64,000 nucleotides of DNA from an uncultured Bacteroidales bacterium (GTDB lineage Bacteria > Bacteroidota > Bacteroidia > Bacteroidales > Paludibacteraceae): NCBI GenBank assembly GCA_902765485.1, contig CACWZZ010000009.1, forward strand, positions 59,854 to 123,853, given 5' to 3'. Positions 5,273-42,345 of the stretch are shown here, piece by piece. Each line of letters opens with the position of its first letter. Positions within the stretch are counted from its first letter, which is position 1. The translations under genes and the position numbers were made by a program. Under the pieces are notes generated by a model. It saw only the letters and a program-made list of their open reading frames with translations, was not told where the DNA came from and searched no databases.

Positions 5273-8227
5273 ATGAAACAATTCTTTTCTTTTTTGTGCG
5301 CCGTGTTGCTCAGCACCGGTCTCTATGCACAGCAACTCAATGAAGGTTTTGAGGGCGAGAGTTTCCCGCCCGAAGGATGGACCGTTATTAACGGAGGAAC
5401 CGGCAATGTTTGGTCAAAGACCGCTAAAGCGGGTAAAACATGCGCCATGATTCCCGGCAACTACGGTTGGGGAGATGGGTATCTTATTACTCCTCAACTC
5501 AAACCGACAGCAGGAGAGAATCTAAAATTCTCCGCTATGATTGGTGACAACGCATCTAATGGAGAACTACGTATTGAGGTATCTCTGGCGGGGACTGATG
5601 TCACTTCGTTCGAGGTGTTAGACACGTACTACACTTCTACTAAAAAAGGCGACGCAGCACACCAACTATGGAAAAGCGAGTGGAAAGAGTACACCATTGA
5701 CCTTTCTGCGTATCAGGGTAGTTCTATCTACATTGCTTTTCACCAAGCGAATGATGCAGACAAGATTTATCTTACTGACATTAAAGGCGTGTCGCTCAAA
5801 GGAGACGGCGAGTGCGAGAACCCGTCTAATATCGTTTTGAACAATTTGGATGCCCATTCAGCCACTTTCACTTGGCAGGGTGACGCGACCGAATACCAAT
5901 ACGTGCTGGTAGAGGATGGCCAAGAAGCGGACTGGACCGCTGCTACCCTCGTGGCGGCGAAGACCGTGACGTTGAGCGGGCTTTATGAGGAGACCAATTA
6001 CACTTTCTATGTCCGTTCCTACTGCTCGGATGACGCACAGAGCCTCGCACCCAAGATGGCATTCAAGACCCCCTGCGAGGCATTTAATATCCCATGGCTG
6101 GAGACCTTCACCCGCGACGAAACCGGTTCCGGATTCGATGTAGCCGAGCCCGATTGCTGGACCGTTGCCACACAAGGTCAGATCAGCGTGGTTAAAGACA
6201 AGACTTATGACGACGAAGGCAATGCCTCTACCGTCAACGGTCAGGCACACCTGCAGGCAATGGGCGGCGGTCCGAACAGCGAACAGGTTTTCGCCATGCC
6301 GACCTTCACCGCGCCGCTCAACACGCTCGAAGTGGCGTTCGACTACAAGACCAGCATGACCGACGCTACCTGCGGCTCGCCCGAGATCGGATATATGACC
6401 AACCCCAACAAGGCTTCCACCTTCGTCTCCCTGCAAACGCTCGCCAAATCGCTCACCTACCAGCATGTGACCATCTCTCTGGAGGATCTGCCCGCGAACG
6501 CGAAGTTCATCGCCTTCCGCTTCGCCGGAGGTACCAGCGACTATTGCACGCTCGCGATGGATAATTTCGTGGTAGCGGAGATCGGCAAGTCCGGCGAAGT
6601 AGATCCGAGCCAGGAAGACATCCCCGACGCAGGTATCTGGTCGATCAGTTACTGCGAAGCATCTTTTGTCTGGTTCTCGTATAACGCCGAGGCCTTCGCC
6701 ATCGGTCTCTTCGACGCAGCGACGCAAGAGCTGATCGCCGGCACTGCCGTCACTACCGGCGAGTGCGACCGTTTTGCGCAGGCAGACGGCGTGGGTTTCT
6801 CCGAGGACGAAGACTACGAAAACAAATACTACTGCTCCACCAAATGGATCCTCAACGTGGACGAATCGGGGCTCTCCAAAGGCAATGCGTGGACCAATGA
6901 TGTGATCAATATCGGAACCGCTACCGCCCCCGTCTTGGGACTCAAACCGGGAACCTACCAAGTGCAGGTCTATGCGCTGAAACAAACCGATACCGGCTAC
7001 GAGCGCGGAGAGACATTGGCTACTATCCCCTTCACGCTGGTAGAGAAGAAAGTGACCGATCTGGCTGTTTCTGTCGCCGACGACAAGACCACCGCCACTC
7101 TCTCGTGGACTGCTCCCGAGTTCGGACAAGGCGAGCGACTCTATGTACGCGTATGGGCGGGCGAGACCGTTGCTTACGACAACCTCGACACCAAGACCCG
7201 TCAGGAGAGCCCGCTGACCGTCAACGTAGAGGAAGGTCTGTCATACACCGCTATCGTGCAAGTGATCGACAAAAACAACAACCCCCTCGGCTCGGAGCAG
7301 CAAGTACTCTTCACCGTAGGTGTCAATAACTTCGAACCGACCAACCTCAAGGCGGAAGTCTTCGGCGGAGACAACGTCACCTTCACATGGGATGCCACTT
7401 CCACCGCCGACCGGTATGTGATCACCCTCTTCTGCGACGGCGAATTCTACGCCACCCTTACCGTCAACGGCAAATCCAAAACGACCACAATGCCGAAAGA
7501 CGGCACCTGGTCATGGACGGTACAGGCGTTCAACGAAGGCGAGAACGGAAACTATTTCGAGGCTTCCAACGCCATCGCCGGTGCTGATTTCGTCTCCAAA
7601 GCAGCAGACATTCCGGAGGACGCAATCGTCATGGATGTATGGGGCATGGAGGCAGCTTACCTCGATGAATACGTGGCTCAGTTCCCTGCCGGCAAATACG
7701 GATGGTACATCACTTTCGCTACCAATGAGGCAGGCGGAACAGGCTATCCGATGCCGACCTTCCTGATCTATACGGACAAAGAGCGTGCTATCTCCGGCGT
7801 GTATAATGTAGCGCGCGGAGGTATTGACGCAGAGAGCTGCTATATTAACGTCAACGGCAAACAAGCGGACGCTATCACAGCTACAGACGCTGAGCTCCGC
7901 CTCCAGTTCGACGGCTATGACGAGGAGAAAGCAGAGAGCGGCTATGCATACGGCTACTACACCGGTTCGTTCCGTCTGGTAGGATCGGACGGCAAGACCT
8001 ATGTGGGCAAGTTCATGGAGATGTTCTGCAACTCGTTCAATTTCTCCACATATGGCACGATCCGCGACCATGTAGGCATGTACGACGAGGATCCGAACGC
8101 TCTCTGGGGAATAGAGAGCATTCAGCCGTCAGAAGTCAGCACTCAGAAGGTGCTGCACGATGGACAACTCTACATCGTCCGCCCGAATGGCACGATCTAC
8201 AATGCCACAGGAAACAGAGTGAAATAA
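5273..8227 (+). CDS. large secreted adhesin-like protein with jelly-roll and FN3-like domains
   Basis: The signal peptide is MKQFFSFLCAVLLSTGLYAQ. The first mature module, from LNEGFEGESFPPEGWTVING to about residue 165, is a choice-of-anchor J/cleaved-adhesin jelly roll. A fibronectin type III-like module follows (NIVLNNLDAHSATFTWQGDA to YVRSYCSD), then a second jelly roll, two more FN3-like modules (VSVADDKTTATLSWTAPE and NLKAEVFGGDNVTFTWDAT) and a C-terminal beta domain. The last 27 residues (KVLHDGQLYIVRPNG and so on) are the shared tail. Immediately before that tail, bases 8123-8150 are four copies of the 7-bp CAGNNNT repeat, encoding QPSEVSTQK. The role is probably cell-surface adhesion or binding. 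The gene has its own promoter. Confidence 0.75.
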   Translation: MKQFFSFLCAVLLSTGLYAQQLNEGFEGESFPPEGWTVINGGTGNVWSKTAKAGKTCAMIPGNYGWGDGYLITPQLKPTAGENLKFSAMIGDNASNGELRIEVSLAGTDVTSFEVLDTYYTSTKKGDAAHQLWKSEWKEYTIDLSAYQGSSIYIAFHQANDADKIYLTDIKGVSLKGDGECENPSNIVLNNLDAHSATFTWQGDATEYQYVLVEDGQEADWTAATLVAAKTVTLSGLYEETNYTFYVRSYCSDDAQSLAPKMAFKTPCEAFNIPWLETFTRDETGSGFDVAEPDCWTVATQGQISVVKDKTYDDEGNASTVNGQAHLQAMGGGPNSEQVFAMPTFTAPLNTLEVAFDYKTSMTDATCGSPEIGYMTNPNKASTFVSLQTLAKSLTYQHVTISLEDLPANAKFIAFRFAGGTSDYCTLAMDNFVVAEIGKSGEVDPSQEDIPDAGIWSISYCEASFVWFSYNAEAFAIGLFDAATQELIAGTAVTTGECDRFAQADGVGFSEDEDYENKYYCSTKWILNVDESGLSKGNAWTNDVINIGTATAPVLGLKPGTYQVQVYALKQTDTGYERGETLATIPFTLVEKKVTDLAVSVADDKTTATLSWTAPEFGQGERLYVRVWAGETVAYDNLDTKTRQESPLTVNVEEGLSYTAIVQVIDKNNNPLGSEQQVLFTVGVNNFEPTNLKAEVFGGDNVTFTWDATSTADRYVITLFCDGEFYATLTVNGKSKTTTMPKDGTWSWTVQAFNEGENGNYFEASNAIAGADFVSKAADIPEDAIVMDVWGMEAAYLDEYVAQFPAGKYGWYITFATNEAGGTGYPMPTFLIYTDKERAISGVYNVARGGIDAESCYINVNGKQADAITATDAELRLQFDGYDEEKAESGYAYGYYTGSFRLVGSDGKTYVGKFMEMFCNSFNFSTYGTIRDHVGMYDEDPNALWGIESIQPSEVSTQKVLHDGQLYIVRPNGTIYNATGNRVK

Positions 8228-8258
8228 ACGGTTTTGCCTCTCATCTACGGTCTACGAG

Positions 8259-8325
8259 TGGGTGATTAGTGGGTGATTAGTGGGTGATTAGTGGGTGATT
8301 AATATGACATCAACGCGAGAATAGC
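8259..8325 (+). repeat. 11-bp tandem repeats after a secreted-protein gene
   Basis: Four copies of TGGGTGATTAG in perfect 11-bp register (8259-8302) are followed by an 11-bp pair related to CGCGAGAATAG/CGGGAGAATAA. The unit is close to the reverse complement of the CTAATCACCCC repeat at 27271-27314. No gene lies here. Confidence 0.9.
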
Positions 8326-11170: not shown

Positions 11171-12507
11171 TCAATACTTTTTATCTTCCGGGTCGCGTTT
11201 GTTCGACCGCTGCGATTCGCAAGATCGCCCAAAAAGCATCAGAGAAATATACTCTCATCTGCCTCAAACCCGACATCGAGTGGGTCTATCTGGGACAGGA
11301 GCGAATGATCCAAGTCCTCGAAATGACCGGGGCAACCATGGTCTATGCCGACCATTTCCAGAAGATCACCGATGAGCAATCCCGGATTACCACTATAGAA
11401 GCGCCGGTCATTGACTACCAAGCCGGTGCGCTGCGCGACGATTTTGATTTCGGAGCCGTGCTCCTGTGGAACACAGCCAAACTCAAAGCGCTCGTCGCAC
11501 AGATGGACACGGGCTACGAATACGCCGGACTCTATGACCTCCGTCTCCGCGCAGAGCGGCTGGAGCACATCCCCGAGTACCTCTATTACGAAGTGGAGAC
11601 CGACACCCGCAAGTCCGGAGAGAAACTCTTTGACTACGTTGATCCGCGCAACAGAGCCGTTCAAATTGAGATGGAAGCCTGCGTCACAGCCCATCTCAAA
11701 CGCATCGGAGCATACCTTGCGCCGGGCGAATACCAACCCTTGCCGGAAGCAGGAGAGTTCCCTGTTACCGCTTCGGTCATTATTCCTTGTAAGAACCGTG
11801 CGCGCACGATAGCCGACGCCATCCACTCTGCCCTCTCGCAAAAAGTGCGTGCTCCGTACTCCTTCAACGTAATAGTCGTGGACGACAATTCCACCGATGG
11901 CACAGCGGAAATCCTTAATGACCTTAAAGCCCTTCATGACCCTAAAGACCTTATTGTCATTGCCCAGGACAAGACTTGGCACGCCATCGGCGGCAACTGG
12001 AACGTAGCGATCCACGACCCGCGTTGCGGGAAGTATGCGATCCAACTGGACTCCGACGACACCTATTTTGACGAAACGACAGTTCAGAAATTCATCGATG
12101 CCTTTGAATCTGGTCTTTACGGAATGGTCATTGGTACGTACCAACTGACCAACATGGCAGGCGAGATTTTGCCTCCGGGAGTGATAGACCACCGCGAATG
12201 GACGGACGAGAATGGGCGCAACAATGCATTGCGTATCAATGGACTCGGTGCACCGCGCGGTTTCTACGTGCCGCTCCTTCGGACGATCAATTATCCCACC
12301 ACCAAATACGGCGAAGACTACGCCGTCGGACTGCGTATCAGCCGCGACTGGCAAATCGGACGCATTTATGACGTGCTCTATAACTGCCGCCGGTGGGAAG
12401 ATAATTCCGACGCCAACTGCGACATCGTCGCCATGAACCGCAATAACTGGTACAAAGACCGCCTCCGCACATGGGAACTCCTTGCGCGGATAAAGAATAA
12501 GGAATAA
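11167..12507 (+). CDS. family 2 (GT-A) glycosyltransferase
   Basis: The C-terminal half, from about residue 200, is a GT-A fold glycosyltransferase: [20 protein letters not shown], then [17 protein letters not shown], then the metal-binding [17 protein letters not shown] and a [15 protein letters not shown] acceptor segment. The N-terminal 200 residues form an additional domain ([32 protein letters not shown]) that I do not recognise, though this two-part layout occurs in Bacteroidetes proteins. No transmembrane helices are evident, so it probably works in the cytoplasm. The start overlaps the kinase stop by 4 bp. Donor and acceptor are unknown. Confidence 0.8.
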
Positions 12508-12513
12508 AGAATA

Positions 12514-13542
12514 ATGAATATCCGCATTGGCATCCTTACCGCCCCTCATATTGATTTCGAGCAGCGGGAACACACGTTCGTGCTGAAAAACGTGCGGATC
12601 GGCATCGGTTTTCATTGGGATCGTCATGAGGACCAAAAGTTCGCGGGCACGCTGGAGATCCGTCATAACCCGGACGGCACACAAACAGCCATCAACACCA
12701 TTGATCTGGAGGACTACCTCTGTTCGGTCATTTCCTCCGAAATGAACGCCAACAGCCCGATGGAATTGCTCAAAGCGCACGCGATCATTTCGCGCTCTTG
12801 GGCTATTCGCGCAATGGAAAACCCCAATCATGAAGGGTTTCATGTCTGCGCTGACGACCATTGCCAACGCTACGAAGGGCTCCGACGAATGAACGAACGC
12901 GCTGTAGAAGCCGTGCGTGCGACTGCCGGACAAGTGTTGATGTACGATGGCAAAGTGTGCGACTGCCGCTATCATAAGTGCTGCGGAGGAAAAACTGAGA
13001 TCTGGAGCACCTGCTGGGAAGATATTGACGTGCCCTATATCCGCTCCGTCGAATGTCCGTACTGCAACCCTGCGTACATTCGCAAATCCGCACAAGGAAT
13101 TTCCGTCCTGCGCACATCCCTCAATGACTACGACCAAGAGACCACAGATTTCCACGATTGGCAGGTCTCCTATACCGCTGAAGAACTGGGCGACATCATC
13201 CGCTCTAAATCTGGTATCGACTTCGGGTCAATCCTAGACATTATACCTCTAAAACGAGGCGCTTCGGGGCGTATTTACCAACTCAAAATAGTGGGTTCCA
13301 AGCATACCGAAATTATCGGCAAAGAGCTCAAAATCCGCCTCTGGCTTAGCCGCAGCTGCCTCTATAGTTCCTGGTTCGACGTGGAGAAAGGACCTTCGTA
13401 CTTCGTACTTCGCGGTCACGGCTGGGGTCACGGAGCAGGACTGTGCCAAATAGGCGCAGCGGTCATGGCGGCGGAAGGCAAGACTTACGAAGAAATATTA
13501 GTTTATTACTACCGTGGAGCAGCACTCCAACATATCCATTGA
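12514..13542 (+). CDS. SpoIID/LytB domain protein
   Basis: The central region has the SpoIID signature: INTIDLEDYLCSVISSEMN, then ELLKAHAIISRSWAIRAM, and near the C-terminus GHGWGHGAGLCQIGAAVMAAEGKTYEEIL followed by YYYRGA. SpoIID proteins cleave denuded peptidoglycan glycan strands, and LytB-type members stimulate amidases. Several Cys residues (CADDHCQRY, KCCGGKTE, CPYCNP) suggest a metal-binding insertion. I see no clear signal peptide, which is odd for a wall enzyme, but the same holds for related Bacteroidetes proteins as far as I recall. It overlaps the next gene by 29 bp and follows the glycosyltransferase by 6 bp. Confidence 0.8.
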   Translation: MNIRIGILTAPHIDFEQREHTFVLKNVRIGIGFHWDRHEDQKFAGTLEIRHNPDGTQTAINTIDLEDYLCSVISSEMNANSPMELLKAHAIISRSWAIRAMENPNHEGFHVCADDHCQRYEGLRRMNERAVEAVRATAGQVLMYDGKVCDCRYHKCCGGKTEIWSTCWEDIDVPYIRSVECPYCNPAYIRKSAQGISVLRTSLNDYDQETTDFHDWQVSYTAEELGDIIRSKSGIDFGSILDIIPLKRGASGRIYQLKIVGSKHTEIIGKELKIRLWLSRSCLYSSWFDVEKGPSYFVLRGHGWGHGAGLCQIGAAVMAAEGKTYEEILVYYYRGAALQHIH

Positions 13543-14737
13543 GCAACTGGCTCTGCAACGCGACCGCTATCGCCATCTCTCCGACGAGGAATGGCGGTGG
13601 TTTTTGCAGCAAGTCGAAGGACGCGAACGCACCGCAGACAAGTTACCCACTTTTGCTGCCATAGACGATTGGTGGTATCCCGTCCGTCTCTCCTGCGAAC
13701 AATGTTCCTCCGAACTCACCGCCCGATATAAAGTGCAAATTGTACTTGGTACTTGGTCAAATGGTACTTGTCTTGATTTGACCGGCGGCTATGGTGTGGA
13801 CACATTCTTCCTCTCCGAACTCTTCGCGTACACCGACTACGTCGAGCAAAACGCCGAACTATGCCGCATTGCCGCGCATAACTTCGCCCTCGCGCACAGA
13901 AATATCTCCGTCCATAACACCTCCGCCGAAGATTTCCTTTCCTCCTCCCCGCGCTATGATCTCATTTTCCTCGACCCTGCGCGGCGAGACAGCCACGGCA
14001 GCAAGGTCTTCCGGCTGGCGGACTGCACTCCCAACGTCGTTGAGTTATTGCCCTCGCTGTTGACCAACCTTGCCCCGGACGGACGGGTTCTGCTCAAACT
14101 CTCGCCGATGCTGGACATCACCCAAGCGATAAAAAAGCTGTCAGCCGTCAGCACTCAGCATTCAGGCATCATTTGGGATGTCCATGTCGTAGCCGTCAAG
14201 AACGAAGTCAAAGAGGTTTTGTTGATGAGCCGGAATACCGATTTATCGAACTATCGAGATACAGAACCGACGATTACCGCCATCGATCTATCAAAAAAGG
14301 AGCAGGCATTCACTTTCACTCGAGAGGAAGAGCGAGAGGCAATTTCTCTCCCCCTTCAGGGGGAGTTGGAGGGGGCTTTTCTCTATGAGCCCAACGCCGC
14401 CATCCTCAAAGCCGGTGCGTACAAGCTCGTTGCCGCGCGTTTCGGGTTACAGAAACTCGACCCGAACACCCATCTCTACACCTCCGACACCCTCGTAGAG
14501 CACTTCCCCGGACGCGTCTGGCGCATAAAAGAAGCCCCTTTCCAACTTTCCCCTAAAGGGGCAAGAGATAAGCAAGCGAATGTTCTCACCCGCAACTACC
14601 CTCTCACGCCGGAGCAATTAAAGAAAAAACTGCACCTCCGCGATGGAGGCGCAGCCTATGTTATTGCTTGCCGGGTGGCAGGTAAACCCACTGTTTTCTT
14701 AGCCGAGCGGGTGGAAGATATCCATTCCGAAAGCTGA
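13514..14737 (+). CDS. class I SAM-dependent methyltransferase, PG_1098-like with THUMP-like domain
   Basis: A Rossmann methyltransferase core is visible: GTCLDLTGGYGVDTFFLSEL (motif I), a DYVEQNAELC acidic strand end, then YDLIFLDPARRDSHGSKVFR, whose DPARR resembles a DPPY-type catalytic motif. The C-terminal region (FPGRVWRIKEAPFQLSP, NVLTRNYPLTPEQLKKKL, GGAAYVIACRV) matches the THUMP-like and ferredoxin-like end of the Porphyromonas PG_1098 family. The probable substrate is RNA. Three repeat insertions interrupt it: 7-bp units at 14135-14169 (KLSAVSTQHSG), a hairpin repeat at 14348-14365 (SLPLQGELEGA) and another at 14533-14563. It overlaps the convergent ABC gene by 39 bp at its 3' end. 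Confidence 0.8.
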   Translation: MEQHSNISIEQLALQRDRYRHLSDEEWRWFLQQVEGRERTADKLPTFAAIDDWWYPVRLSCEQCSSELTARYKVQIVLGTWSNGTCLDLTGGYGVDTFFLSELFAYTDYVEQNAELCRIAAHNFALAHRNISVHNTSAEDFLSSSPRYDLIFLDPARRDSHGSKVFRLADCTPNVVELLPSLLTNLAPDGRVLLKLSPMLDITQAIKKLSAVSTQHSGIIWDVHVVAVKNEVKEVLLMSRNTDLSNYRDTEPTITAIDLSKKEQAFTFTREEEREAISLPLQGELEGAFLYEPNAAILKAGAYKLVAARFGLQKLDPNTHLYTSDTLVEHFPGRVWRIKEAPFQLSPKGARDKQANVLTRNYPLTPEQLKKKLHLRDGGAAYVIACRVAGKPTVFLAERVEDIHSES

Positions 14738-15478
14738 GGTGAAAGCGTCTTTCTTTTTTAACTCTTCCGCCGTGTCTAACTGCACACCCTTGCCGGGTGT
14801 CATCAGCAGAATCCGGTCGCTCAACGTGAGAGCCAGATCCAGTTCGTGCGTCGAGATCAGGACTGTTTTGCCCTGCTCGTGCGCCAGTTGGCGTAACAGC
14901 CGCAGCACTAAGATCCTGTGCGGCAGATCCAAATGCGCCGTGGGCTCGTCCAACAGGATGATCGGCGTTTGTTGCGCCAACGCTTTGGCAATCAAGATCC
15001 GCTGTTTCTCACCGTCCGAATGGGCGTTAAAGAACGACTCACTCACTTCCTCCGCATTCGCAAAACCCACCTCGCGCAGCGACTCTTTTATAATCCGTTC
15101 GTCTTCGTCCGACAGCCCGTCCAGAAACGACGTATAGGGGTATCTTCCCATGGCGACTACGTCGTGTACTGTCGTGTTCTCCATCGACATCCGCTCCGTC
15201 AAGACCAAGGCAATGCTTCTCTCTGCCTTCTGATGCAGGTTTGAGTTAGTTGACAGTTGATAACTCCCTTCCAGCGCCGGTTGCAGTCCTGCGAGGGTGC
15301 GCAGAAGGGTCGATTTGCCGCAACCATTCGGGCCCAGCATACACACCATCTCGCCCTCATAGAGCGAGAAAGTCAGATCGGCTTGCACTATCTTCTGACG
15401 GCTGACAGCTGATGGTTTTCGACCTCTGTCAGCATAGCCGATGGTCAGTTTATTCGTAGAAATAGAGACGTTGGACAC
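14699..15478 (-). CDS. ABC transporter ATP-binding protein, FecE/BtuD type
   Basis: The 259-residue protein has Walker A GPNGCGKSTLL, a Q-loop region (LVLTERMSMENTTVHDVVAMGRYPYTS, typical of iron-siderophore and cobalamin importers), Walker B IILLDEPTAHLDLP and the H-loop STHELDLAL. The signature motif is unusual: HSDGEKQR stands where LSGGEKQR is expected. No permease or binding protein is nearby, so its partners must be elsewhere. Bases 15393-15420 hold sense-oriented 7-bp repeats encoding RKPSAVSRQK near residue 20, in the loop before the first long strand. A second repetitive stretch near 15240-15260 encodes QLSTNSNLHQ. It overlaps the gene upstream by 29 bp. Confidence 0.85.
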   Translation of the reverse strand: MSNVSISTNKLTIGYADRGRKPSAVSRQKIVQADLTFSLYEGEMVCMLGPNGCGKSTLLRTLAGLQPALEGSYQLSTNSNLHQKAERSIALVLTERMSMENTTVHDVVAMGRYPYTSFLDGLSDEDERIIKESLREVGFANAEEVSESFFNAHSDGEKQRILIAKALAQQTPIILLDEPTAHLDLPHRILVLRLLRQLAHEQGKTVLISTHELDLALTLSDRILLMTPGKGVQLDTAEELKKKDAFTSAFGMDIFHPLG

Positions 15479-17279
15479 GGCGGCTGACAGAAGTTAATAT
15501 TTCGTACGTAATTGTACCGAGTTTGTCGGCAAGTTCTTGCAGGGGCATGTGTTCGCCGAAGACCTCCACCGGGTCACCGGGACGCGCATCTGTTCCGGTT
15601 ACATCGATCATAGCTTGGTCCATGCAGACGTTGCCGACCACCGGACAGCGTTTGCCGCGCAGCCACACTTCGCCGCCATAATTGGAGAAGCGCCGGTCGA
15701 AACCATCGGCATAGCCGATCGGGATGACTGCGATCGTGCGGTCTTCCTCCAGCTTGGTGTGACGTCCGTAACCAATCGTCTCGCCCGCCTTGACGGTCTT
15801 GACAGACAGGATCGTCGTCTCCAGCGAACAGACATTGCGCAACTTCGCACCGGCGAACGAGAAACCGTACAGACCGATGCCCAACCGACACATGTCGAAC
15901 TGGTAGTCCGTGAAGCGTTCTATACCGGCGGAGTTGAGGATATGTTTTAAAACCTCACCCCGACCCTCTCCAAAGGAGAGGGAGGATTTCAATTCCTCCG
16001 CACACTCGTCGAAATACTTTATTTGTTGAAGGGTGAAATCGTCAAACTGCGCTTCGTCGCTGCCTGCCAAATGCGAGAAGACAGACGCCACGCGCACAGC
16101 CTTGTGTGCCTTCAATTTCTCCAGCAGCCAAGGAATATCCTCTTTGTAGAAGCCCAGCCTGTGCATGCCGGAGTCGATCTTGATATGGATTGGCACATGC
16201 TCCAGCCCTTTTGCCTCCGCCGCAGCGATCACGGTCTTGAGCGACTGATGGCTATAGACGTTCGGCTCCAAGTTGTTCTCCAGAATCAAGTCCATCGCAG
16301 CCACTTCGGGATCCATAATAATGATCGGCAGCGTGATACCTGCCTTGCGCAACTCTACCCCTTCGTCTGCCACAGCGACCGCCAAGTAATCCACCATTCC
16401 GCTTGCTTGGAGCGCTTTGGACACTTCGACACTTCCTGCTCCGTACGCAAACGCCTTCACCATGCATGTCAACTTCGTCTCCGGCTTCAGCAACCCGCGG
16501 AAATAGCGCACATTCTCCACCAGCGCAGAGAGGTTCACTTTGAGCACCGTCTCGTGCGTCTGGTGGAGTATTCGCGAAGCAATCAACTCCTCGTCGTACC
16601 CTAACGCCCGCATCACAGCGGCGCACGTCCGCACATTCTGGTGCGTCGGATCTTCGATGATCTGCTCCGAGTGAACAAACAGTTTCATCTTCTCCGCTCG
16701 TTTCTGTTCCAGCGAGACGAAGTTCTCGTCGTGTTCATGCCCGATATACGTGATTACGCCTATGGTCGGACGAATGATCGGTTCCAACTTCTCCATCTCA
16801 CCGGGTTGCGAAATTCCAGCCTCAAAGATGGCTAATACCGGCTTCTCTGCCTTTTGACGGCTGATAGCAGATAGTTCCCACACACTCAGCGGCACACCAA
16901 TCTGCGAGTTATACGATTTGGGCGAACGGATGATGGTGTAGTCGTCTTTGAGCAGCTGATACAACCATTCCTTCACCACAGTCTTTCCGTTCGAACCGGT
17001 AATACCGATCACGGTTCCTTTGAACTGCGCCCGCACATGCGCCGCGAGTGCCTGCAACGCAGCTACGCTATCGCCGGTTACAAAAGCCTGCACACCTTTC
17101 TCCCGCAATTCCGGGATATATTTTGCTCCGTCATTCTTCGCCGTCTTGATCGCAAAAAACAACGTATCCTCGGCTGACGGCTGACGGCTATCAATACTCA
17201 GATGCCGTATCTCCAACTCGTCAGGTCCTTCCACTTGGGCAATCGACCCTATGACTTGTTTGATCTCAGATAATTTCAT
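15450..17279 (-). CDS. alr: MurF-alanine racemase fusion with most of the MurF ligase deleted
   Basis: The start is the ATG complementary to 17277-17279; a TTG 24 bases earlier lies inside the -7 box. Residues 1-230 are the start of a MurF ligase, with the N-terminal domain and ATP loop GITGSNGKT (about 92-100), VLAIFEAGISQPGEM and GVITYIGHEHDENF. The rest of the central domain and the whole C-terminal Mur domain are missing. From about residue 238 (HETVLKVNLSALVENVRYF) a complete alanine racemase follows: PLP lysine in MVKAFAYGAGS, GIGLYGF, IGYGRHT with the catalytic Tyr region, and VGNVCMDQAMIDVTG. At 609 residues it is about 200 short of the usual Bacteroidetes fusion. It should supply D-Ala but is unlikely to ligate D-Ala-D-Ala. 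Repeats are inserted at 15952-15989 (SSLSFGEGRGEV), 16851-16874 and 17169-17193. Confidence 0.85.
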   Translation of the reverse strand: MKLSEIKQVIGSIAQVEGPDELEIRHLSIDSRQPSAEDTLFFAIKTAKNDGAKYIPELREKGVQAFVTGDSVAALQALAAHVRAQFKGTVIGITGSNGKTVVKEWLYQLLKDDYTIIRSPKSYNSQIGVPLSVWELSAISRQKAEKPVLAIFEAGISQPGEMEKLEPIIRPTIGVITYIGHEHDENFVSLEQKRAEKMKLFVHSEQIIEDPTHQNVRTCAAVMRALGYDEELIASRILHQTHETVLKVNLSALVENVRYFRGLLKPETKLTCMVKAFAYGAGSVEVSKALQASGMVDYLAVAVADEGVELRKAGITLPIIIMDPEVAAMDLILENNLEPNVYSHQSLKTVIAAAEAKGLEHVPIHIKIDSGMHRLGFYKEDIPWLLEKLKAHKAVRVASVFSHLAGSDEAQFDDFTLQQIKYFDECAEELKSSLSFGEGRGEVLKHILNSAGIERFTDYQFDMCRLGIGLYGFSFAGAKLRNVCSLETTILSVKTVKAGETIGYGRHTKLEEDRTIAVIPIGYADGFDRRFSNYGGEVWLRGKRCPVVGNVCMDQAMIDVTGTDARPGDPVEVFGEHMPLQELADKLGTITYEILTSVSRRVQRLYFYE

Positions 17280-17376: not shown

Positions 17377-17409
17377 TAATCCTATGTTAATCCTGTGTTA
17401 ATCCTGTGT
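17377..17409 (+). repeat. 11-bp tandem repeat between divergent promoters
   Basis: Three units in perfect 11-bp register: TAATCCTATGT then TAATCCTGTGT twice. They lie between the divergent promoters at 17301-17332 and 17445-17476. Confidence 0.9.
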
Positions 17410-17444
17410 TGAAATGAGGAAGGATGAAAAAAATCACTAATTTA

Positions 17445-27236: not shown

Positions 27237-27270
27237 GTTTGTCTCATAGTAATGAGTGCTGAATAACCCC

Positions 27271-27318: not shown

Positions 27319-27325
27319 TGAGAGG

Positions 27326-27530: not shown

Positions 27531-27537
27531 GCGTGAG

Positions 27538-30599: not shown

Positions 30600-32138
30600 A
30601 TGTTTAAGAATCAACCTAAAGGGCTTTTTGCTCTGGCGTTGGCCAACACGGGCGAACGCTTCGGCTACTACACGATGTTAGCCGTTTTTGCGCTGTTCCT
30701 GCGCGCTAATTTTGGTTTGTCGGCTTCTGCCGCAGGTGCTATTTATTCCACTTTTTTGGCATTTGTGTATTTTCTGCCGCTGATCGGCGGTATCGTAGCC
30801 GATAAGATCGGTTACGGCAAATGCGTGACGATCGGAATTATCATTATGTTTTTGGGCTACGTGCTTCTGGCGCTTCCGATGGGTGGCGTAGAGAGCGGCA
30901 GTACGGCTGTAGCGATGACAGGCATGATTGCTGCGCTGGTGCTGATCAGTTTCGGAACGGGTCTTTTCAAAGGAAACTTGCAAGTGATGGTGGGCAATCT
31001 ATACGACGATCCGGCTTATGCCGACCGCCGCGATGCTGCCTTCTCGCTGTTCTATATGGCAATCAACATCGGCGCTATGTTCGCACCGACGGCAGCTGTT
31101 AAGATCATGGCGTGGGCTCAGGATTCGCTGGGTGTGAGCGTCAATGACAGTTACCATTTCGCGTTCGCGGTAGCCTGCGCTTCGCTGGTATTGAGTATCG
31201 CGATTTATTATGCTTGCCGTCCTTGGTTCAAGCACGTAGAGAACACCGCCAAACAAGCGGCAGCGAGCGGTCAGAAAGTAGAGACGCTGACTCCGGAGCA
31301 GACCAAGAAACGTATCGTGGCGCTGTGTCTGGTGTTCGCCGTTGTGCTGTTCTTCTGGATGGCATTCCACCAGAACGGTCTGACGCTGACTTATTTTGCC
31401 AATGAGTTTGTGAACCCGGTTGTGACGGGTGTTCAAACGATGGCATTTGATATCATCAACTTGGTATTGGTAGCTATTCTGGTGTATGCGCTGTTCGGCA
31501 TTTTCGGCGAAGGCAGCCGCAAAGCGAAGACAATCTGGAGCTGCGTGGGTATTGCTGTGATCGGTGCGCTGGCTTATAAATATCTCAGCCATCCGTCAGA
31601 GTTGAACATTTCCGCTCCTATTTTCCAGCAGTTCAACCCGTTCTATGTAGTAGCTCTGACTCCGGTGAGCATGGCTATTTTCGGTGCGTTGGCGAAGAAA
31701 GGCAAAGAGCCGAGTGCTCCGCGCAAGATCGCCTATGGTATGTTGGTAGCCGCAGCAGCTTATGCGGTAATGGCATTCTGTTCGGTTGGGCTGCTGAGTC
31801 CGGCAGAGCAAGAGTTGGCACGCGTATCCGGCGAAGGTACATTCGTCAATGCCAATGTGCTGATTTTGACGTATTTGGTACTCACTTTCGGTGAGTTACT
31901 GCTTAGCCCGATGGGTATCTCGTTCGTCAGCAAAGTGGCACCTCCGCAATACAAAGGAATGATGATGGGTGGCTGGTTTGTAGCTACTGCGCTGGGTAAT
32001 TTCCTTGTTTCCGTTGGCGGTTTCCTCTGGGGCAGTCTGCCGTTGTGGCTCGTATGGAGCGTGTTCATCGGCGTGTGCCTGATTGCCGCTATCTTCATGT
32101 TTGCGATGATGGGCAAGCTGGAAGACGCAACGAAATAA
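30600..32138 (+). CDS. POT/PTR family proton-dependent peptide transporter
   Basis: A 512-residue major facilitator protein. The N-terminus carries the PTR2 signature (NTGERFGYYTMLAVFALFLRANFGLS, that is the ExxERFxYY motif), then FVYFLPLIGGIVADKIGYGKCVTIG and GNLQVMVGNLYDDP, followed by about 12-14 membrane helices and PMGISFVSKVAPPQYKGMMMGGWF, the conserved C-half signature. It imports di- and tripeptides using the proton gradient. It is flanked by simple repeats on both sides and carries no inserted repeats itself. Confidence 0.9.
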   Translation: MFKNQPKGLFALALANTGERFGYYTMLAVFALFLRANFGLSASAAGAIYSTFLAFVYFLPLIGGIVADKIGYGKCVTIGIIIMFLGYVLLALPMGGVESGSTAVAMTGMIAALVLISFGTGLFKGNLQVMVGNLYDDPAYADRRDAAFSLFYMAINIGAMFAPTAAVKIMAWAQDSLGVSVNDSYHFAFAVACASLVLSIAIYYACRPWFKHVENTAKQAAASGQKVETLTPEQTKKRIVALCLVFAVVLFFWMAFHQNGLTLTYFANEFVNPVVTGVQTMAFDIINLVLVAILVYALFGIFGEGSRKAKTIWSCVGIAVIGALAYKYLSHPSELNISAPIFQQFNPFYVVALTPVSMAIFGALAKKGKEPSAPRKIAYGMLVAAAAYAVMAFCSVGLLSPAEQELARVSGEGTFVNANVLILTYLVLTFGELLLSPMGISFVSKVAPPQYKGMMMGGWFVATALGNFLVSVGGFLWGSLPLWLVWSVFIGVCLIAAIFMFAMMGKLEDATK

Positions 32139-32189
32139 TTGAGAATTGAGAATTGAGAGTTGAGAATTGAGAATTGAGAATTGAGAATT
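32137..32189 (+). repeat. 7-bp tandem repeat (AATTGAG)
   Basis: Seven units of AATTGAG, one with a variant base (AGTTGAG), fill the entire gap between the POT gene and the next ATG. Confidence 0.9.
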
Positions 32190-32193
32190 TTTT

Positions 32194-32706
32194 ATGGAGG
32201 AAGTAATTAAATATTTTGAGTCTCTGGAGGCGCGGATAGCGGAAAACGAAAAACGCATCGCGGCTCTGGAGGAGGCTCAGCAGACCAACGAAGCAATTAT
32301 TGCTTCGCTGGAAGCAGAGATAGAGGACCTGAAAAGTCGTCCGCTGCCGGAGCCACAAGTGGTTGAGAAAGAAGAAGAAAGAGTAGAATACTCCGAGCCG
32401 GAGCCGGTTGTTGTGGCAGAACCCGTCAAAGCCGAACCCGTGAAGGAGGAAGTGGCTTCTCCGAAGGCGGCTATCTATGGCAAGGCTGTGACGGATATTC
32501 GTCAGGCAATCTCGCTGGGAGACCGGTTCTTGTATCAACGTGAGTTGTTCGGTCAAAACGCAGAACTGATGCAAAAGACGCTGACAGAGTTGAACGAGTT
32601 GGGTTCGTTTGACGAGGCGATGGAGTACATCCGCCGCTTCGGATGGGACACCGAGAGCAACTCTTATCAGCAGTTTATTGTAACTCTGCACAGGAGATTC
32701 GGGTAA
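32194..32706 (+). CDS. small coiled-coil protein of unknown function
   Basis: 170 residues. The first 55 form a clear coiled coil (YFESLEARIAENEKRIAALEEAQ, then IIASLEAEIEDLKS). A Pro/Glu/Val-rich spacer follows (EPQVVEKEEERVEYSEPEP), then a predicted helical domain (AVTDIRQAISLGDRFLYQRELF, MEYIRRFGWDTESNSYQQFI). The last part resembles the GDRFLFQRELF motif of Bacteroidetes proteins annotated only as hypothetical. No signal peptide. It lies between the POT and rsmI genes, separated from both by AATTGAG arrays. Confidence 0.7.
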   Translation: MEEVIKYFESLEARIAENEKRIAALEEAQQTNEAIIASLEAEIEDLKSRPLPEPQVVEKEEERVEYSEPEPVVVAEPVKAEPVKEEVASPKAAIYGKAVTDIRQAISLGDRFLYQRELFGQNAELMQKTLTELNELGSFDEAMEYIRRFGWDTESNSYQQFIVTLHRRFG

Positions 32707-32735
32707 TTGAGAATTGAAAATTGAGAATTGAGAAT
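32704..32735 (+). repeat. 7-bp tandem repeat (AATTGAG) before rsmI
   Basis: Four units, one AATTGAA variant, beginning in the stop region of the coiled-coil gene and ending two bases before the rsmI ATG. Confidence 0.85.
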
Positions 32736-32737
32736 TA

Positions 32738-33406
32738 ATGTTATACATTGTTCCGACACCGGTTGGCAATCTGCAGGACATGACGTTCCGCGCGATTGAA
32801 GTGCTGAAATCAGTAGATCTGATTTTGGCGGAAGACACGCGCACGAGCGGCATTCTGCTGCAACATTACGACATCCATACGCCGCTGAAGAGCCATCATA
32901 AGTTCAACGAACATGAGACCTCTGCGGACATCGTGGAGCGGCTGAAAGCAGGTGCGAATATCGCGCTCATTTCCGACGCAGGCACTCCTGCTATCAGCGA
33001 CCCCGGGTTCTTTCTGGTGCGCGCAGCTGCCGAAGCAAAGATAGAGATCCAATGTCTGCCGGGAGCAACGGCTTTTGTGCCGGCTTTAGTGGACAGCGGA
33101 CTGCCGAACAACCATTTCTATTTCGAGGGTTTCCTGCCGCAGAAGAAAGGCCGGCAGACACGGTTGCAATACCTCGCTGCGCTGGACCAGACGTTTATCG
33201 TCTATGAGTCGCCTTTCCGGCTGGTGAAGACCTTGGAACAACTGGCGGCGGTATGCGGCGAAGAGCGCAAGGCGAGTGTGACGCGCGAGATCAGCAAAGT
33301 GCATGAAGAGACGGTGAGAGGTTCGCTGGCAGAACTGGTCGCACATTTCAAAGCGAAAGCGCCCAAAGGCGAGATTGTGGTCTGCGTTGCGGGAATTGAA
33401 AATTGA
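32738..33406 (+). CDS. rsmI: 16S rRNA (cytidine-1402-2'-O)-methyltransferase
   Basis: A tetrapyrrole-methylase-fold enzyme of 222 residues. MLYIVPTPVGNLQDMTFRAIEVLKSVDLILAEDTRTSG is the N-terminal signature. HKFNEHE, ISDAGTPAISDPGFFLVRAA, CLPGATAFVPALVDSGLP and FYFEGFLPQKKGRQTRLQ then follow in the order expected, with the final TREISKVHEETVRGSLAEL. It methylates C1402 in the ribosomal P site. The last residues, GIEN, and the stop codon are encoded by the AATTGAA repeat, exactly as in the SGNH gene, so the natural C-terminus has probably been replaced. Confidence 0.93.
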   Translation: MLYIVPTPVGNLQDMTFRAIEVLKSVDLILAEDTRTSGILLQHYDIHTPLKSHHKFNEHETSADIVERLKAGANIALISDAGTPAISDPGFFLVRAAAEAKIEIQCLPGATAFVPALVDSGLPNNHFYFEGFLPQKKGRQTRLQYLAALDQTFIVYESPFRLVKTLEQLAAVCGEERKASVTREISKVHEETVRGSLAELVAHFKAKAPKGEIVVCVAGIEN

Positions 33407-33430
33407 AAATTGAAAGTTGAAAGTTGAAAG
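33393..33430 (+). repeat. 7-bp tandem repeat (AATTGAA/AGTTGAA) overlapping the rsmI stop
   Basis: Five units running from inside the rsmI reading frame, through its TGA, into the gap before the flippase gene. Confidence 0.85.
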
Positions 33431-33436
33431 AGAAGC

Positions 33437-36230: not shown

Positions 36231-37484
36231 ATGAAAAAATTAAGTATTGTTTTGCTTGCCGCACTGGCAATGATATCCTGCGGCAACAGTTACAAAGCAC
36301 AAGACGCCGTACTGACCAACGAGAGCGACTCTGTCAACTACGCGCTGGGTGTGCTGAATGGTATGCAGATCAAAATGTATCTTCTTGCCAACGACAGCAG
36401 CGATGAGGCTGTGGCTGAGTTTATCGACGCCATGGAGAGCGCGTATCTGGACAAAGAAGAGGAACTGAACGAGACCCAGAAAGCAGGTCATCAGTTTGGT
36501 TCGTCCGTCAAGGGATTCGAGAAGAAAGGTTTGGCGGAAAACAAATCATGGGCGCTGAACGAGAAAGTGTTCTTCCAAGGCGTTGTTAACGCGATGAACG
36601 AAGACACGACCGTCATGAAAGCCGATGTAGCGGAGAGCTATCTGATGAGCAAATCTCATGCTCAAACGCCAAGCGAAGAGAAAGAGGCTCCGAAGCCGAT
36701 CACCGGCAAATGTCCGAAGAAAGCCAAAACGATCACGCTCGCCAATGAGGTTGATTCGCTCAACTACGCACTCGGATACATGAACGGCGACCAAATCCGC
36801 CAGTATATTCTGGCAGAAGACACCACCGGCGAAGCGATGGATGAGTTTATCGATTATGTGAATATCGGTCTGAAAGAGAAGGTGCGCAACCCGAAAGCTG
36901 TCTCCACCGCCAAGAATATCGGTACCGCCATCCGCGAGCAGGAGCCGGTGGGGCTGCTGGGCGTGGCAGGGATGGAGACCAACTTCGACCTGATCAAACA
37001 AGGTTTCATCAACGGTATGTACAACTACACCGAGCAATTCGACATGCAATCCGCGAGCCATTATGTGGATTCCGTCATGTCAGCCAAGAAATTCGGTGAT
37101 GCGAAAGCAGAGGGCGAGAAATTCCTGCAGGAGAACGCGCTGCGCGAGGAGGTCAAAGTGACCGATAGCGGTTTGCAGTACGAAGTACTGGTACAGGGCA
37201 AAGGTCCGAAACCGACGGCAGAGCAGACGGTCAAAGTTCATTATGAGGGCACGCTGATTGACGGTACTGTCTTCGACAGCAGCTACCAACGCGGCGAGCC
37301 GATCGAGTTCCCGCTGAACGGCGTGATCAAAGGTTGGACCGAAGGTCTGCAGTTGATGCCGAAGGGCTCGAAATACAAACTCTATATCCCGTACGAGCTG
37401 GGTTACGGCGAGCGCGGCGCAGGCCAGTCAATTCCGCCGTTCGCAACGCTGATCTTCACCGTTGAACTGCTGGATATCAAATAA
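36231..37484 (+). CDS. FKBP-type isomerase lipoprotein with duplicated N-terminal domain
   Basis: 417 residues. [19 protein letters not shown] is a lipoprotein signal with Cys at the lipobox, so it is exported and lipid-anchored. The mature part has two related FKBP_N-like units: [24 protein letters not shown] near residue 29 and [24 protein letters not shown] near residue 178. A single FKBP catalytic domain then follows ([36 protein letters not shown] onward). The internal duplication is unusual; family members normally have one N-unit. It probably assists folding of envelope proteins. The gene ends at an AATTGAG repeat. Confidence 0.88.
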
Positions 37485-37515
37485 TTGAGAATTGAGAATT
37501 GAAAATTGAAAATTG
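37485..37515 (+). repeat. 7-bp tandem repeat (AATTGAG/AATTGAA)
   Basis: Four units between the FKBP lipoprotein gene and the second flippase gene; possible start codons of the latter (TTG at 37506, GTG at 37515) lie in or at the edge of it. Confidence 0.85.
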
Positions 37516-39008
37516 TGGGCGTCATTGCTAAACAATCCATACGTGGCACGATTGTGACCTACCTTGGCATTGCCGTAGGTGTCTTCACCACGTTCTTCGT
37601 GTTAACCCGTTTCCTCACTACCGAGGAAATCGGGTTGGCACGGGTGCTGATTGACGCCGCCACACTCTTCATCGGTCTGGCGCAGTTGGGCACGTACGCC
37701 AGCGTGATCCGATTCTATCCGTATTTTAAGGAGAAAGAGAGCGAAGAGGACCACGGATTCTTCTTCTGGGCGATGGTGGTTCCGTTCGTCGGATTTGTCC
37801 TTTTCGCCCTGATCTATTGGGCTTGCCGTGTGCCGCTGGGCGCATGGTTTGGAGACAAATCGCCGCTGTTTGTGGAGTACTATTATTTCGTGCTCCCGCT
37901 GGCGTTCTTTATGCTCTACCAAACGATCTGCGAGAGTACATGCAATGTGCTGATGCATATTGTGGTGCCACGGGCGGTGCGCGAACTGGTGGTGCGGATA
38001 GGACTGTTGGCGATCTATCTGCTGTACGCCTTCCGGGTGATCTCCATCGACGGACTGGTCGTCGGTATTTGCATCAACTATGCGGTCGCAGCGGTCATAA
38101 ATCTGTGCTATTTCTTCTCGCTGCACACTATCCGTCTGCGTCCGGATTGGGTTTTCTTGCGGGAGAACAAAGGACTCGTCCGCCGCTATCTGGTTTACAC
38201 CGGATTTCTGCTGCTCTCTGCGGTCACAACGGTTCTGGCGCCTACCCTGTCGTCTTTTTTTGTGACCGCCAAGATGGGACTGAGCAACACCGGTATTTTT
38301 GCGATAGCGACCTATATGGCGGTGATGGTGAGTGTACCGAACCGCTCCGTTTCGGCGATTGCTTCGCCGCAACTGGCACAAGCGATCAAAGAGCAGAACC
38401 GCGAAGAGTGCTCTTTCTTGATACGCCAAGTAACGAGAAACATGCTGCTCATCGGCGGGTTTATTCTGCTGGCGATATGGCTCAATATCGATTTGATTTT
38501 CCATATCCTGCCGAATGGCGCTACGTATGCTACGGCAAAGAATGTAGTGTTTATCTTGGGCGTCAGCCAATTGATTTTGGGGACGTTCACTATTTGTCTG
38601 ACGGCGTTGAACTATTCTCGGTACTATGCCTTCAGTCTGATCTGGTCGCTGATTTTGACGGTCAGCGCCATTATGCTCAATAATTATCTGGTGCCGCGCT
38701 ATGGCATGGAGGGCGCTGCGCTCAGCAACTTGATCTCGTACGGGTTGTATTACCTGCTGATCATTGCAACGCTGGTGCCGCTGGGGCGTTTTCACGTAGT
38801 GGACCGCCGATGGGTATATATATTGCTGCTGCTCGTCGGTATTTTCGGTCTGAATGTCCTCTGGCAGACATGTCTGCCTGCGATGAATATATGGGTGGAC
38901 AGCCTCTGCCGGAGCATTGTGCTGCTCGGCTGCGGCGCGTGGATCGCCTACAAGGCGCAACTCTCGCCGGAGCTCAATGCCCAAGTAGCCCAATGGTACA
39001 ATAAATAG
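37515..39008 (+). CDS. second polysaccharide biosynthesis flippase
   Basis: About 497 residues with 12-14 membrane segments. It begins GVIAKQSIRGTIVTYLGIAVGVFTTFFVLTRFL and later has SVPNRSVSAIASPQLAQAIKEQN and the GMEGAALSNLISYG segment typical of Wzx/MATE-type polysaccharide exporters. I take the GTG at 37515 as start; a TTG at 37506 inside the repeat would add three residues. It is not closely similar to the flippase at 33.4 kb, so the two probably move different glycans. The 31-bp gap to truA holds another A/T-rich repeat. Confidence 0.83.
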   Translation: MGVIAKQSIRGTIVTYLGIAVGVFTTFFVLTRFLTTEEIGLARVLIDAATLFIGLAQLGTYASVIRFYPYFKEKESEEDHGFFFWAMVVPFVGFVLFALIYWACRVPLGAWFGDKSPLFVEYYYFVLPLAFFMLYQTICESTCNVLMHIVVPRAVRELVVRIGLLAIYLLYAFRVISIDGLVVGICINYAVAAVINLCYFFSLHTIRLRPDWVFLRENKGLVRRYLVYTGFLLLSAVTTVLAPTLSSFFVTAKMGLSNTGIFAIATYMAVMVSVPNRSVSAIASPQLAQAIKEQNREECSFLIRQVTRNMLLIGGFILLAIWLNIDLIFHILPNGATYATAKNVVFILGVSQLILGTFTICLTALNYSRYYAFSLIWSLILTVSAIMLNNYLVPRYGMEGAALSNLISYGLYYLLIIATLVPLGRFHVVDRRWVYILLLLVGIFGLNVLWQTCLPAMNIWVDSLCRSIVLLGCGAWIAYKAQLSPELNAQVAQWYNK

Positions 39009-41333: not shown

Positions 41334-42345
41334 TATCGGCTTAGCGATAGTCGGTCTGCTGCTCGCGGGGTGCGCCCCGCGGGTGGCAACTTCGTTTTGG
41401 AAGATCGGCACACCGGCGGACTCCACAATGGAGGGCTACACCGTCATCCATGCGGAGGGCAAGACGCGCCACTGCTACCCCATCGACGTATGGACCGATG
41501 GTCCGGAAATTGATACCTACCACCAGCTCCACCACCATGGCGTGGCGGTTGAAAGTGAGTTGATGGCTTACCGCATCTATTTCGACAAGAAACAGACCAT
41601 TGATCCGTATTGCAAGCGCAAGCCGCAGCTGGAGTTGGCTAAGAGCCATTGGTATCCCAACGATAGTCTGCTGGAGGCGGGGTATGGCGATGATATTCTC
41701 CGCGTCAGCGGAACGGTCGGCGTCGGTTCTGTCAAATACTGGAACGGCAAACTGTTTCATATAGAGGAGGTTGGCGAGCGGCAGCAATTGATTGTCAAGA
41801 AAGGGCGCAACGAAGCCACTATCGCTGTTTGCGATGTGGACTGGACGGTGCCGGACGGCAAAGAAGAATTGCCGGAGACGCGACATATCGTCAATCTGGA
41901 TGTCCGATATACGATGAAAGCCGGACATAGGGATATGCGTTGCGACGTCTTCTGCTCGGCACCCATTGAAGGGCTCTGCACCGGCGTACAGACCATTCCG
42001 GCGAAGGGGGGAAAAGATACTATCTCGCTTATCCTGCCAAACGGTATTCTTTTAGCCTCTTGGGGCACCGACTGGCCTGTGAACGATAGCGTCAAGTATG
42101 CCAAAGAGACTGTCGGCTTGGGTGTTTTTATTCCAAAGGAGTATGCCGGTGCCCTTGTCCACGACAAGCGGAACAACTTGTGTTTGTTAAAGCTGTCAGC
42201 TTTCAGCCATCAGCCGTCAGCCTTGCCCCGCACCGCTCATTTCTATCTCACCTGCTGCGGAGCCACCAAAGAAAACCACCCCGTGGCAAAGACTGCCGAA
42301 GAGTGGTACGCCTATCTCCGCCGCTGGGCAAAGAAACTGAAGTGA
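41314..42345 (+). CDS. DUF4861 family lipoprotein
   Basis: The start chosen is the ATG at 41314, 20 bp inside the GH28 gene. MSRSINNIGLAIVGLLLAGC is a lipoprotein signal. The mature protein begins SFWKIGTPADSTMEGYTVIHAEGK and contains DVWTDGPEIDTYHQLHHHGVAVESELMAYRIYFDKKQTID, the conserved core of DUF4861, a Bacteroidetes family found with pectin and rhamnogalacturonan genes. Its activity is not certain. Bases 42190-42224, five 7-bp units, insert KLSAFSHQPSALPR between two C-terminal strands (NNLCLL and TAHFYLTCCG). Confidence 0.82.
   Translation: MSRSINNIGLAIVGLLLAGCAPRVATSFWKIGTPADSTMEGYTVIHAEGKTRHCYPIDVWTDGPEIDTYHQLHHHGVAVESELMAYRIYFDKKQTIDPYCKRKPQLELAKSHWYPNDSLLEAGYGDDILRVSGTVGVGSVKYWNGKLFHIEEVGERQQLIVKKGRNEATIAVCDVDWTVPDGKEELPETRHIVNLDVRYTMKAGHRDMRCDVFCSAPIEGLCTGVQTIPAKGGKDTISLILPNGILLASWGTDWPVNDSVKYAKETVGLGVFIPKEYAGALVHDKRNNLCLLKLSAFSHQPSALPRTAHFYLTCCGATKENHPVAKTAEEWYAYLRRWAKKLK

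Follow-up and report, generated by a model that had tools for sequence, protein, structure and literature searches.

Dispersed tandem repeats of seven-base units are known from several groups of bacteria, among them cyanobacteria, whose short tandemly repeated repetitive (STRR) sequences are dispersed and slightly degenerate heptamers. As far as the accessible part of the report goes, TAACTGA heptamers occur in Beggiatoaceae, cyanobacteria and some Bacteroidetes, with an unknown mechanism of spreading, and 11 open reading frames (ORFs) hold their open strand, mostly in short proteins or at protein ends (MacGregor 2015, PMC4679880). The GGGAATC and GGGGA(C/T)T repeats of Xanthomonas and Nostoc are described, in the available text, as preferring four units and as mostly non-coding; in Xanthomonas, 7-11% of them are intragenic, and for 83% a second species has the repeat in a corresponding context (Rehm 2015, PMC4692102). 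According to the accessible portion of SPADE (PMC6344855), tandem heptamers are the most abundant intergenic short repeats in many kinds of prokaryotes, and nothing points to their function. In addition, the Rickettsia palindromic elements (RPEs) are inserted in frame within conserved protein genes, as stated in the part available of a review (Delihas 2007, PMC2229807). Here we analyze the heptameric repeat CAGNNNT in a window of 64,000 nucleotides (the whole stretch of DNA under study, positions 59,854 to 123,853 of contig CACWZZ010000009.1, assembly GCA_902765485.1) from an uncultured Bacteroidales bacterium of the Paludibacteraceae. Many of its arrays stand in frame inside conserved protein genes, as RPEs do, and same-genus orthologues differ at these sites, carrying nothing, other heptamers or palindromic elements.

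The original prediction had described a 7-bp repeat, CAGCCRT, inside at least eleven protein genes of the window, and the repeat is indeed far more abundant than expected: two consecutive units match 32 times (overlaps included), as compared to 1.83 expected and to a maximum of 6 in 100 shuffles. Neither is it restricted to the window, which would have counted against the prediction, as three consecutive units match 395 times genome-wide, overlaps included, and the reversed pattern only twice; the assembly comprises 2,116,796 bases (41 contigs, 82.8% complete). These are tandem 7-bp units at many unlinked sites, as in other dispersed heptamers, and an artefact of a single assembly is unlikely because arrays are common to separately binned relatives. 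From 862,481 bases of the genome, which include stretches picked around matches (L033-L052) and in which genes were called with a custom caller, 81 arrays of at least three units were delimited. Arrays of at least two units numbered 109 in the sampled genome, as compared to 18 with the reversed pattern, so part of the two-unit matches must be due to chance. Two or more exact units in a row are present in 11 of the 14 tracts initially listed, the exceptions being both MurF-Alr tracts (16851 and 17169) and that of the MBOAT gene (23850); this leaves nine of the eleven named genes on solid ground. The gene names are backed by Pfam for MurF-Alr, dxs, MBOAT, CoaE, WbqC and the class IV aminotransferase (ilvE), and further for the signal peptidase, the ABC ATPase and the PG_1098-type protein.

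Comparison with relatives shows that the tracts are insertions relative to orthologues, which are empty or have different inserts at the same place. As for the other condition set against the prediction, identical residues at these sites in distant Bacteroidales, the comparison covered same-genus orthologues, which differ, and the solved IlvE 4dqn, which has no tract. Protein alignments comprised 5 to 20 relatives per gene, a broken WbqC stretch of 11 amino acids from G030 having been dropped and the G035 row of the ABC ATPase alignment being empty. G015, G030 and G002 have no insert in the ABC ATPase, and in G032, G027, G015 and G030 the residues at the IlvE site are IKGNEYLTP. In the dxs loop, relatives carry heptamers as diverse as GGAATCA, AACGGCT, GGGTTAC, CACCCGT, CAATGGA, ACAAATC and GGTGAAA, and dxs of G061 and of G022 display a similar unit on opposite strands. 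Most of the compared sites are occupied by another insert, and clean empty sites are few. The predicted placement in loops is supported where it could be evaluated, namely by the dxs, CoaE and IlvE alignments and by an IlvE model. The solved IlvE homologue 4dqn, which lacks the tract, shows a nine-residue gap opposite to it, and an AlphaFold2 model places the tract between predicted strands 224-230 and 241-245 (mean predicted local distance difference test score, pLDDT, of 77.6, and approximately 69 over residues 231-240). Around the tracts of Dxs and CoaE, the alignments with the best homologues of known structure have gaps or low similarity.

Short palindromes of the type CTCTCCCC...GGGGAGAG, together with a GGTCTGTCAGTCCGAAGGAC type, were also observed as in-frame inserts in the loops that hold heptamers, at the lepB and ilvE sites of relatives (L228, L236, L269 and L257) and also in coaE and dxs; we take these palindromic elements of the genus to be of the repetitive extragenic palindrome (REP)-like or miniature inverted-repeat transposable element (MITE)-like class. 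The CAGNNNT arrays are, by inspection, direct repeats and not inverted ones, in line with the earlier claim that their style differs from that of MITEs, and they are distinct from the palindromic elements sharing their sites.

The turnover at two of these sites was surveyed in 68 taxa having both lepB and ilvE, with insert labels assigned by simple patterns and a tree built without the insert columns. Nine states were found for lepB and ten for ilvE, that is, seven and eight insert classes plus "none" and "other", and the tree needs at least 37 changes for each gene, as compared to means of 43.4 and 45.4 with shuffled labels, which indicates inheritance plus much change. Moreover, an identical lepB block is present in the window, in L252 (G030) and in L255, while the block of the sister species G083 differs and resembles that of L222.

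We then focused on G083, whose array flanks are on average 95.9% identical to ours. Fifty-two arrays could be mapped through both flanks (27 in genes, 25 outside), although mapping inside long repeats yields some negative lengths; 23 were the same, 27 had changed in length and 2 were of equal length but different. Starting from the arrays of G083 itself (46 mapped, an overlapping set), 22 were the same and 24 had changed. In genes, five of the 27 arrays were replaced by another repeat: by palindromic elements at window positions 8117 and 19145 (the latter in dxs), by ACCAAGT heptamers at window position 28342 (lepB) and at L135 8126, where both flanks are 99% identical, and by another, TCAA-type heptamer at L045 13215 (flanks 98 and 100%). 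L215 17643 is the reverse case, with a CAGNNNT array in G083 and a palindrome here. Furthermore, the unit itself had changed in genes at L135 13231 and L146 715, and at L145 8438 the array exists only here, at the same length. At a gene junction (L145 5991), the array is absent from G083 (45 versus 12 bases, both flanks 99%), and no target-site duplication is clear there by eye. Length differences within genes were zero in 18 of 27 cases, and eight of the other nine were multiples of three (e.g., +21 at L135 1008 and -39 at window position 26001, coaE site 2), one of these eight being a mapping artefact (window position 14135, really unchanged). The exception, L146 715, differs by +2 and has one flank of 86%. 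Outside genes, 18 of 25 arrays differed in length, with 5, 7 and 6 cases by remainder on division by three. In the 15 shared CAGNNNT arrays (equal length and at least 75% alike only), fixed letters had changed in 3 of 196 positions and the NNN letters in 11 of 147 (Fisher p = 0.006). Separately, the 3.3 kb at 19055-22392 are 83% identical to G083, with neighbours at 93 and 95%, and the protein encoded at 20762-22261 has a best segment 99% identical to G022, perhaps through allele exchange between species.

The arrays have a sharp left end. With four phases recordable, the second letter of the unit, namely the A behind the bar in C|AGCNNT(CAGNNNT)n, is the first base in 58 of the 81 arrays; 15 open with the third letter, 3 with the first and 5 with the last. 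The AAGC opening noticed earlier is thus real, and the heptamer, although genuine, is better written with its start at AG. When every sampled genome of the genus is considered, the second-letter start holds for 96 of 143 TCAG arrays, part of which are shared by descent. It is less pronounced in TCAA arrays (23 of 66), and a different phase is preferred by TCAC arrays (9 of 20). When strict AG(N3TCAG)k blocks were counted in this genome, 6 had k = 2, none k = 3, 20 k = 4, 4 k = 5 and 5 were longer; in G083 the corresponding counts were 3 for k = 2, 0 for k = 3, 8 for k = 4 and 2 for longer blocks. In a looser count of any AG-spaced run, a k = 4 peak was also found for TCGAAAG in relatives. A k = 4 block spans 30 bp, a multiple of three and the commonest length of CAGNNNT arrays in genes, and a k = 3 block 23 bp. 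The NNN letters are mostly CCG, CCA, CCT, AAG, CTA or CAT. Insertion of exact multiples of seven at an existing AG was considered as well; it predicts k = 3 in genes, where the strict count gave none, as compared to 19 blocks with k = 4, but the looser count given below does hold k = 3 arrays, so that this possibility is weakened only.

Regarding gene placement, 65 of the 81 arrays lie in genes, all in the sense orientation and spread over the three frames (20, 21 and 24); eight of the others are antisense over a gene edge and eight are intergenic. Hence, the claim that the repeat is always in sense holds for in-gene arrays of at least three units (65 to 0) but not for exact two-unit matches, of which 16 in genes are sense and 7 antisense, with 5 intergenic. 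For period-7 families in general, the in-gene arrays have TCA in sense in 77 cases and TGA in 3 (18 unclassified), and those at co-directional gene junctions have TGA in sense in 44 and TCA in 8 (17 unclassified); the junction families are mostly AT-rich and many overlap the upstream stop codon. The consensus units of 209 in-gene period-7 arrays from all sampled genomes were then evaluated for stop codons and hydropathy: 153 are open in all frames in sense only, 18 in antisense only, 26 in both and 12 in neither. In 24 of the 26 arrays with both strands open, not all independent as some share sites, the more hydrophilic peptide is the one used as sense, which suggests that the sense-only pattern results from selection on the peptide and not from strand-aware insertion. 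The prediction had explained the orientation by stop codons; the antisense strand does carry them, but they are probably not the whole reason.

The picture of a single repeat proved incomplete, as CAGNNNT is one among many heptamer families of the genus, and others fill gene junctions. In the first 462,628 sampled bases, 97 period-7 arrays of any sequence were found, as compared to 0 in one triplet shuffle; period 7 was the most frequent among periods 4-13, with 18, 16 and 22 arrays for periods 8, 9 and 11, under thresholds that differ by period. In the window plus the stretches chosen without regard to matches, 108 period-7 arrays occur in 463,853 bases, approximately one per 4.3 kb, and 54 of them are in genes; like CAGNNNT, these arrays do not show a mostly intergenic habit. 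Period 11 is the second favoured period of the genome, with arrays at 8257-8301, 17377-17410, 27266-27317 and 58339-58380 (e.g., AGTGGGTGATT and TGATCCCGTGA). Five of 36 same-genus genomes have no match to the CAG triple or to its reversed form, and three of these five carry other heptamers in the sampled stretch, as one or two arrays. The arrays are not confined to the genus, as 27 CAG triple matches were found in G041 and 17 in G058; the related loci in named genomes (n = 74) are mostly labelled as Paludibacteraceae or uncultured Bacteroidales, many of them from ruminants. The reversed pattern used as a control is common in G007, G009, G015 and G022 of the genus, probably reflecting GACTNNN-type heptamers there.

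In the window, the CAGNNNT arrays lie on the plus strand unless stated otherwise. A 30-bp block at 8117-8146, near the 3' end of a gene for a 984-residue protein with fn3 and Cleaved_Adhesin matches, faces a palindromic element in G083, and the stretch compared measures 33 bases in each of the two genomes. The arrays at 14136-14171 (PG_1098-type gene) and 42191-42224 (a gene initially called DUF4861) are unchanged and identical, respectively, in G083, and the ABC ATPase array lies at 15393-15420 on the minus strand. MurF-Alr, also on the minus strand, has a degenerate tract at 16851-16874, where G018 has a GGGTTAC array and G002 GAATCAG, and a short one at 17169-17193, where G018 has GGGTTAC plus GTCGAAA arrays. 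Two arrays are located in dxs, one at 18511-18538, where relatives have other heptamers, and the 30-bp block replaced in G083 at 19146-19175; the weak MBOAT tract is at 23850-23866. In coaE, site 1 (25790-25824) is short in 7 of 11 relatives, and site 2 is a long array (26002-26077). The lepB block (28343-28372, 30 bp) is the one shared with G030; that of the WbqC-family gene (29335-29364, 30 bp) is matched in relatives by GTCGAAA, AATCGAC, CAGTNNT or nothing; and the ilvE block, 30 bp plus NNNT, occupies 30165-30198.

Arrays of other heptamers, all on the plus strand, accompany these. Junction arrays of GATGAAA/GGTGAAA and of GAATAAN are found at 4267-4307 and 12486-12523, the latter identical in G083, and one of AATTGAG at 23549-23582 was not found in G083, where the surroundings differ too. 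Intergenic GGTGAAA arrays lie at 27323-27363 and 27394-27478 (about 11 units) and are followed by a TGAATAA-type array at 27483-27534. AATTGAG recurs at 32134-32192, where the upstream gene has its stop codon, and at further stop codons at 32701-32740 and 37479-37518, while an AATTGAA/GTTGAAA array at 33391-33432, shorter by one heptamer in G083, provides a stop codon.

Overall, we consider it probable that CAGNNNT is a family of dispersed, selfish, high-turnover heptamers that invade permissive loops. Arrays would be written in as short blocks, in either orientation and mostly with the common start AGCNNT, and new CAGNNNT blocks may often comprise four heptamers (30 bp). In genes, selection would retain those blocks that keep the frame, are free of stops and encode a hydrophilic peptide in loops tolerating extra residues, so that the frame and orientation patterns would act as selective filters; the opposite orientation could persist at gene ends, where it is able to provide stop codons. 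Later changes would include gain or loss of heptamers, letter changes mainly at NNN, and overwriting by other heptamers or palindromic elements, either in place or through recombination between alleles. The blocks may be copied from other arrays via short homology with frequent template switching, a process expected to leave a shared unit without a shared unit order. Whole-array copying between loci was rejected, as unit order is shared no more than in shuffles.

Several observations weigh against this explanation. The right end of the 81 arrays is spread over the four phases (43, 19, 14 and 5). A looser AG-spaced count of CAGNNNT in this genome gives 20 arrays with k = 3, 35 with k = 4 and 12 with k = 5, and AG-spaced arrays other than CAGNNNT show no k = 4 peak when pooled, either here (k = 2, 30; k = 3, 12; k = 4, 9) or in the relatives' stretches. 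The unit order is not common to loci (33 three-unit runs, as compared to 23.7 with a standard deviation of 7.5 in shuffles), which fits poorly with copying of intact arrays; adjacent identical units are in excess (54 versus a mean of 34.3); and, outside genes, half of the length changes (9 of 18) are multiples of seven. The consensus of 30 of the 209 in-gene arrays carries a stop in some sense frame. Moreover, the lepB and ilvE inserts track the tree beyond shuffles (37 changes versus minima of 39 and 41), so many were inherited, and some replacements may be imported alleles, given that L252 and L255 have the lepB block of the window and L222 one similar to that of G083. Finally, no enzyme tracks the arrays: reverse transcriptase was detected in 11 of 41 genomes, and it was not found in G001 or G035, two incomplete genomes rich in arrays. 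Ku was found in 0 of 41 genomes, and Y1 transposase in 16 of 41 (12 above the cut-off), with none in the genome of the window (G000). Reverse transcriptase, Ku end joining and a Y1/REP transposase were thus set aside as the common engine, although all genomes are drafts and absences are soft. The genome of the window has one reverse transcriptase match, at G000:C1:122485-123039. With default blastn of our own sample against the relatives' loci, no recent near-identical transfer was seen (none of at least 90% identity over at least 250 bases).

The arrays could alternatively be simple sequence repeats, in which slippage in place from a chance seed is followed by drift with period 7 kept. The gains and losses of 7, 14 and 21 bases between the sister species, the surplus of identical neighbours and some WbqC arrays of relatives, which resemble stepwise variants in one register, would agree with it; the identical neighbours and the multiples of seven outside genes do indicate that slippage contributes. 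In phase-variable simple sequence repeats, copy-number changes within a population switch the frame; between the two species compared here, almost every length change in a gene leaves it intact. Slippage alone is insufficient, because one unit is common to very many unrelated sites with a common start phase, and unrelated repeats replace arrays beside well-matched flanks; similar units on opposite strands at one site add to this, and as a full explanation slippage is in our view unlikely. Homologous recombination between species could instead reshuffle old loop alleles, with few new insertions needed. Allele import through recombination seems to occur also, as the sharing of lepB blocks among species cuts across the sister pair, and the divergent 3.3-kb region between better conserved neighbours points in the same direction. 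However, replacements stand between nearly identical flanks at L135 8126 and L045 13215, and seven or eight insert classes must still have entered the same spot, so recombination is given only slight credence as the main process.

A dedicated mobile element, in which a transposase or a template-carrying (telomerase-like) polymerase writes the blocks, would account for the common start phase, for the occurrence of both orientations, for the preference for four heptamers in CAGNNNT and TCGAAAG, and for the dominance of period 7 irrespective of sequence (97 arrays, with lower counts at periods 8, 9 and 11 under differing thresholds). Nevertheless, a target-site duplication was not demonstrated, the letters of the units differ inside one array, other AG-spaced families have no peak at four, and the distributions of reverse transcriptase and Y1 transposase described above do not fit; we regard this possibility as doubtful. 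To a similarly small degree we entertain that a writing activity in the genus makes fixed-start blocks, such as AG(N5AG)4 of 30 bp, with inner letters free and the heptamer species-specific, which are recorded in tolerant loops of core enzymes; its weight is reduced by the fact that, among the families, CAGNNNT and TCGAAAG alone show a preference for four heptamers. Retention for a function, either as sites of a DNA-binding protein or as useful protein loops, could be read from the slower change of the fixed letters and from the density of period-7 arrays. It is nonetheless very improbable, as units vary by species and yield to palindromes or to nothing at the same site, and as five of the 36 same-genus genomes do without the CAG or reversed triple, three of them carrying other heptamer arrays.

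Selfish heptamers invading permissive loops therefore remain our preferred explanation, and the genus offers what is needed to follow them: with dozens of species, dense arrays, orthologous sites holding different heptamers and a sister pair, it is possible to quantify how arrays are gained and lost, as well as their size and phase. Moreover, the arrays represent a natural insertion scan of conserved enzymes, revealing which loops of IlvE, Dxs, CoaE and LepB take extra peptides.

Regarding the known systems, CAGNNNT belongs with the dispersed heptameric repeats and not with palindromic elements or MITEs. As far as the available texts allow a comparison, it resembles TAACTGA in being a heptamer used in all frames, with the stop strand at gene ends and the open strand able to lie inside ORFs; it differs in that TAACTGA is one heptamer, mostly intergenic, whereas many heptamers occur here, CAGNNNT mostly in genes, and the same loops hold different inserts among related species. 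Likewise, and with the same restriction, the Xanthomonas and Nostoc repeats are dispersed, slightly degenerate and prefer four units, whereas CAGNNNT lacks their quadruplex-type G-runs and, unlike those of Xanthomonas, is mostly intragenic, with many of its arrays altered or substituted in G083. RPEs, in the part of the review available, are selfish repeats in frame in conserved protein genes too, but as palindromes of 105-146 bp and not as tandem arrays commonly of about 30 bp; REP- and MITE-like elements occupy the same loops here, as inverted repeats in contrast to tandem heptamers. In searches of open-licence papers, judged from the entries listed, no earlier report of heptamers invading genes was apparent besides PMC4679880 and the intragenic minority in PMC4692102. 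The present case unites features of these systems, as its heptamer arrays behave like a protein-invading selfish element, genus-wide in the samples and with differing inserts per spot.

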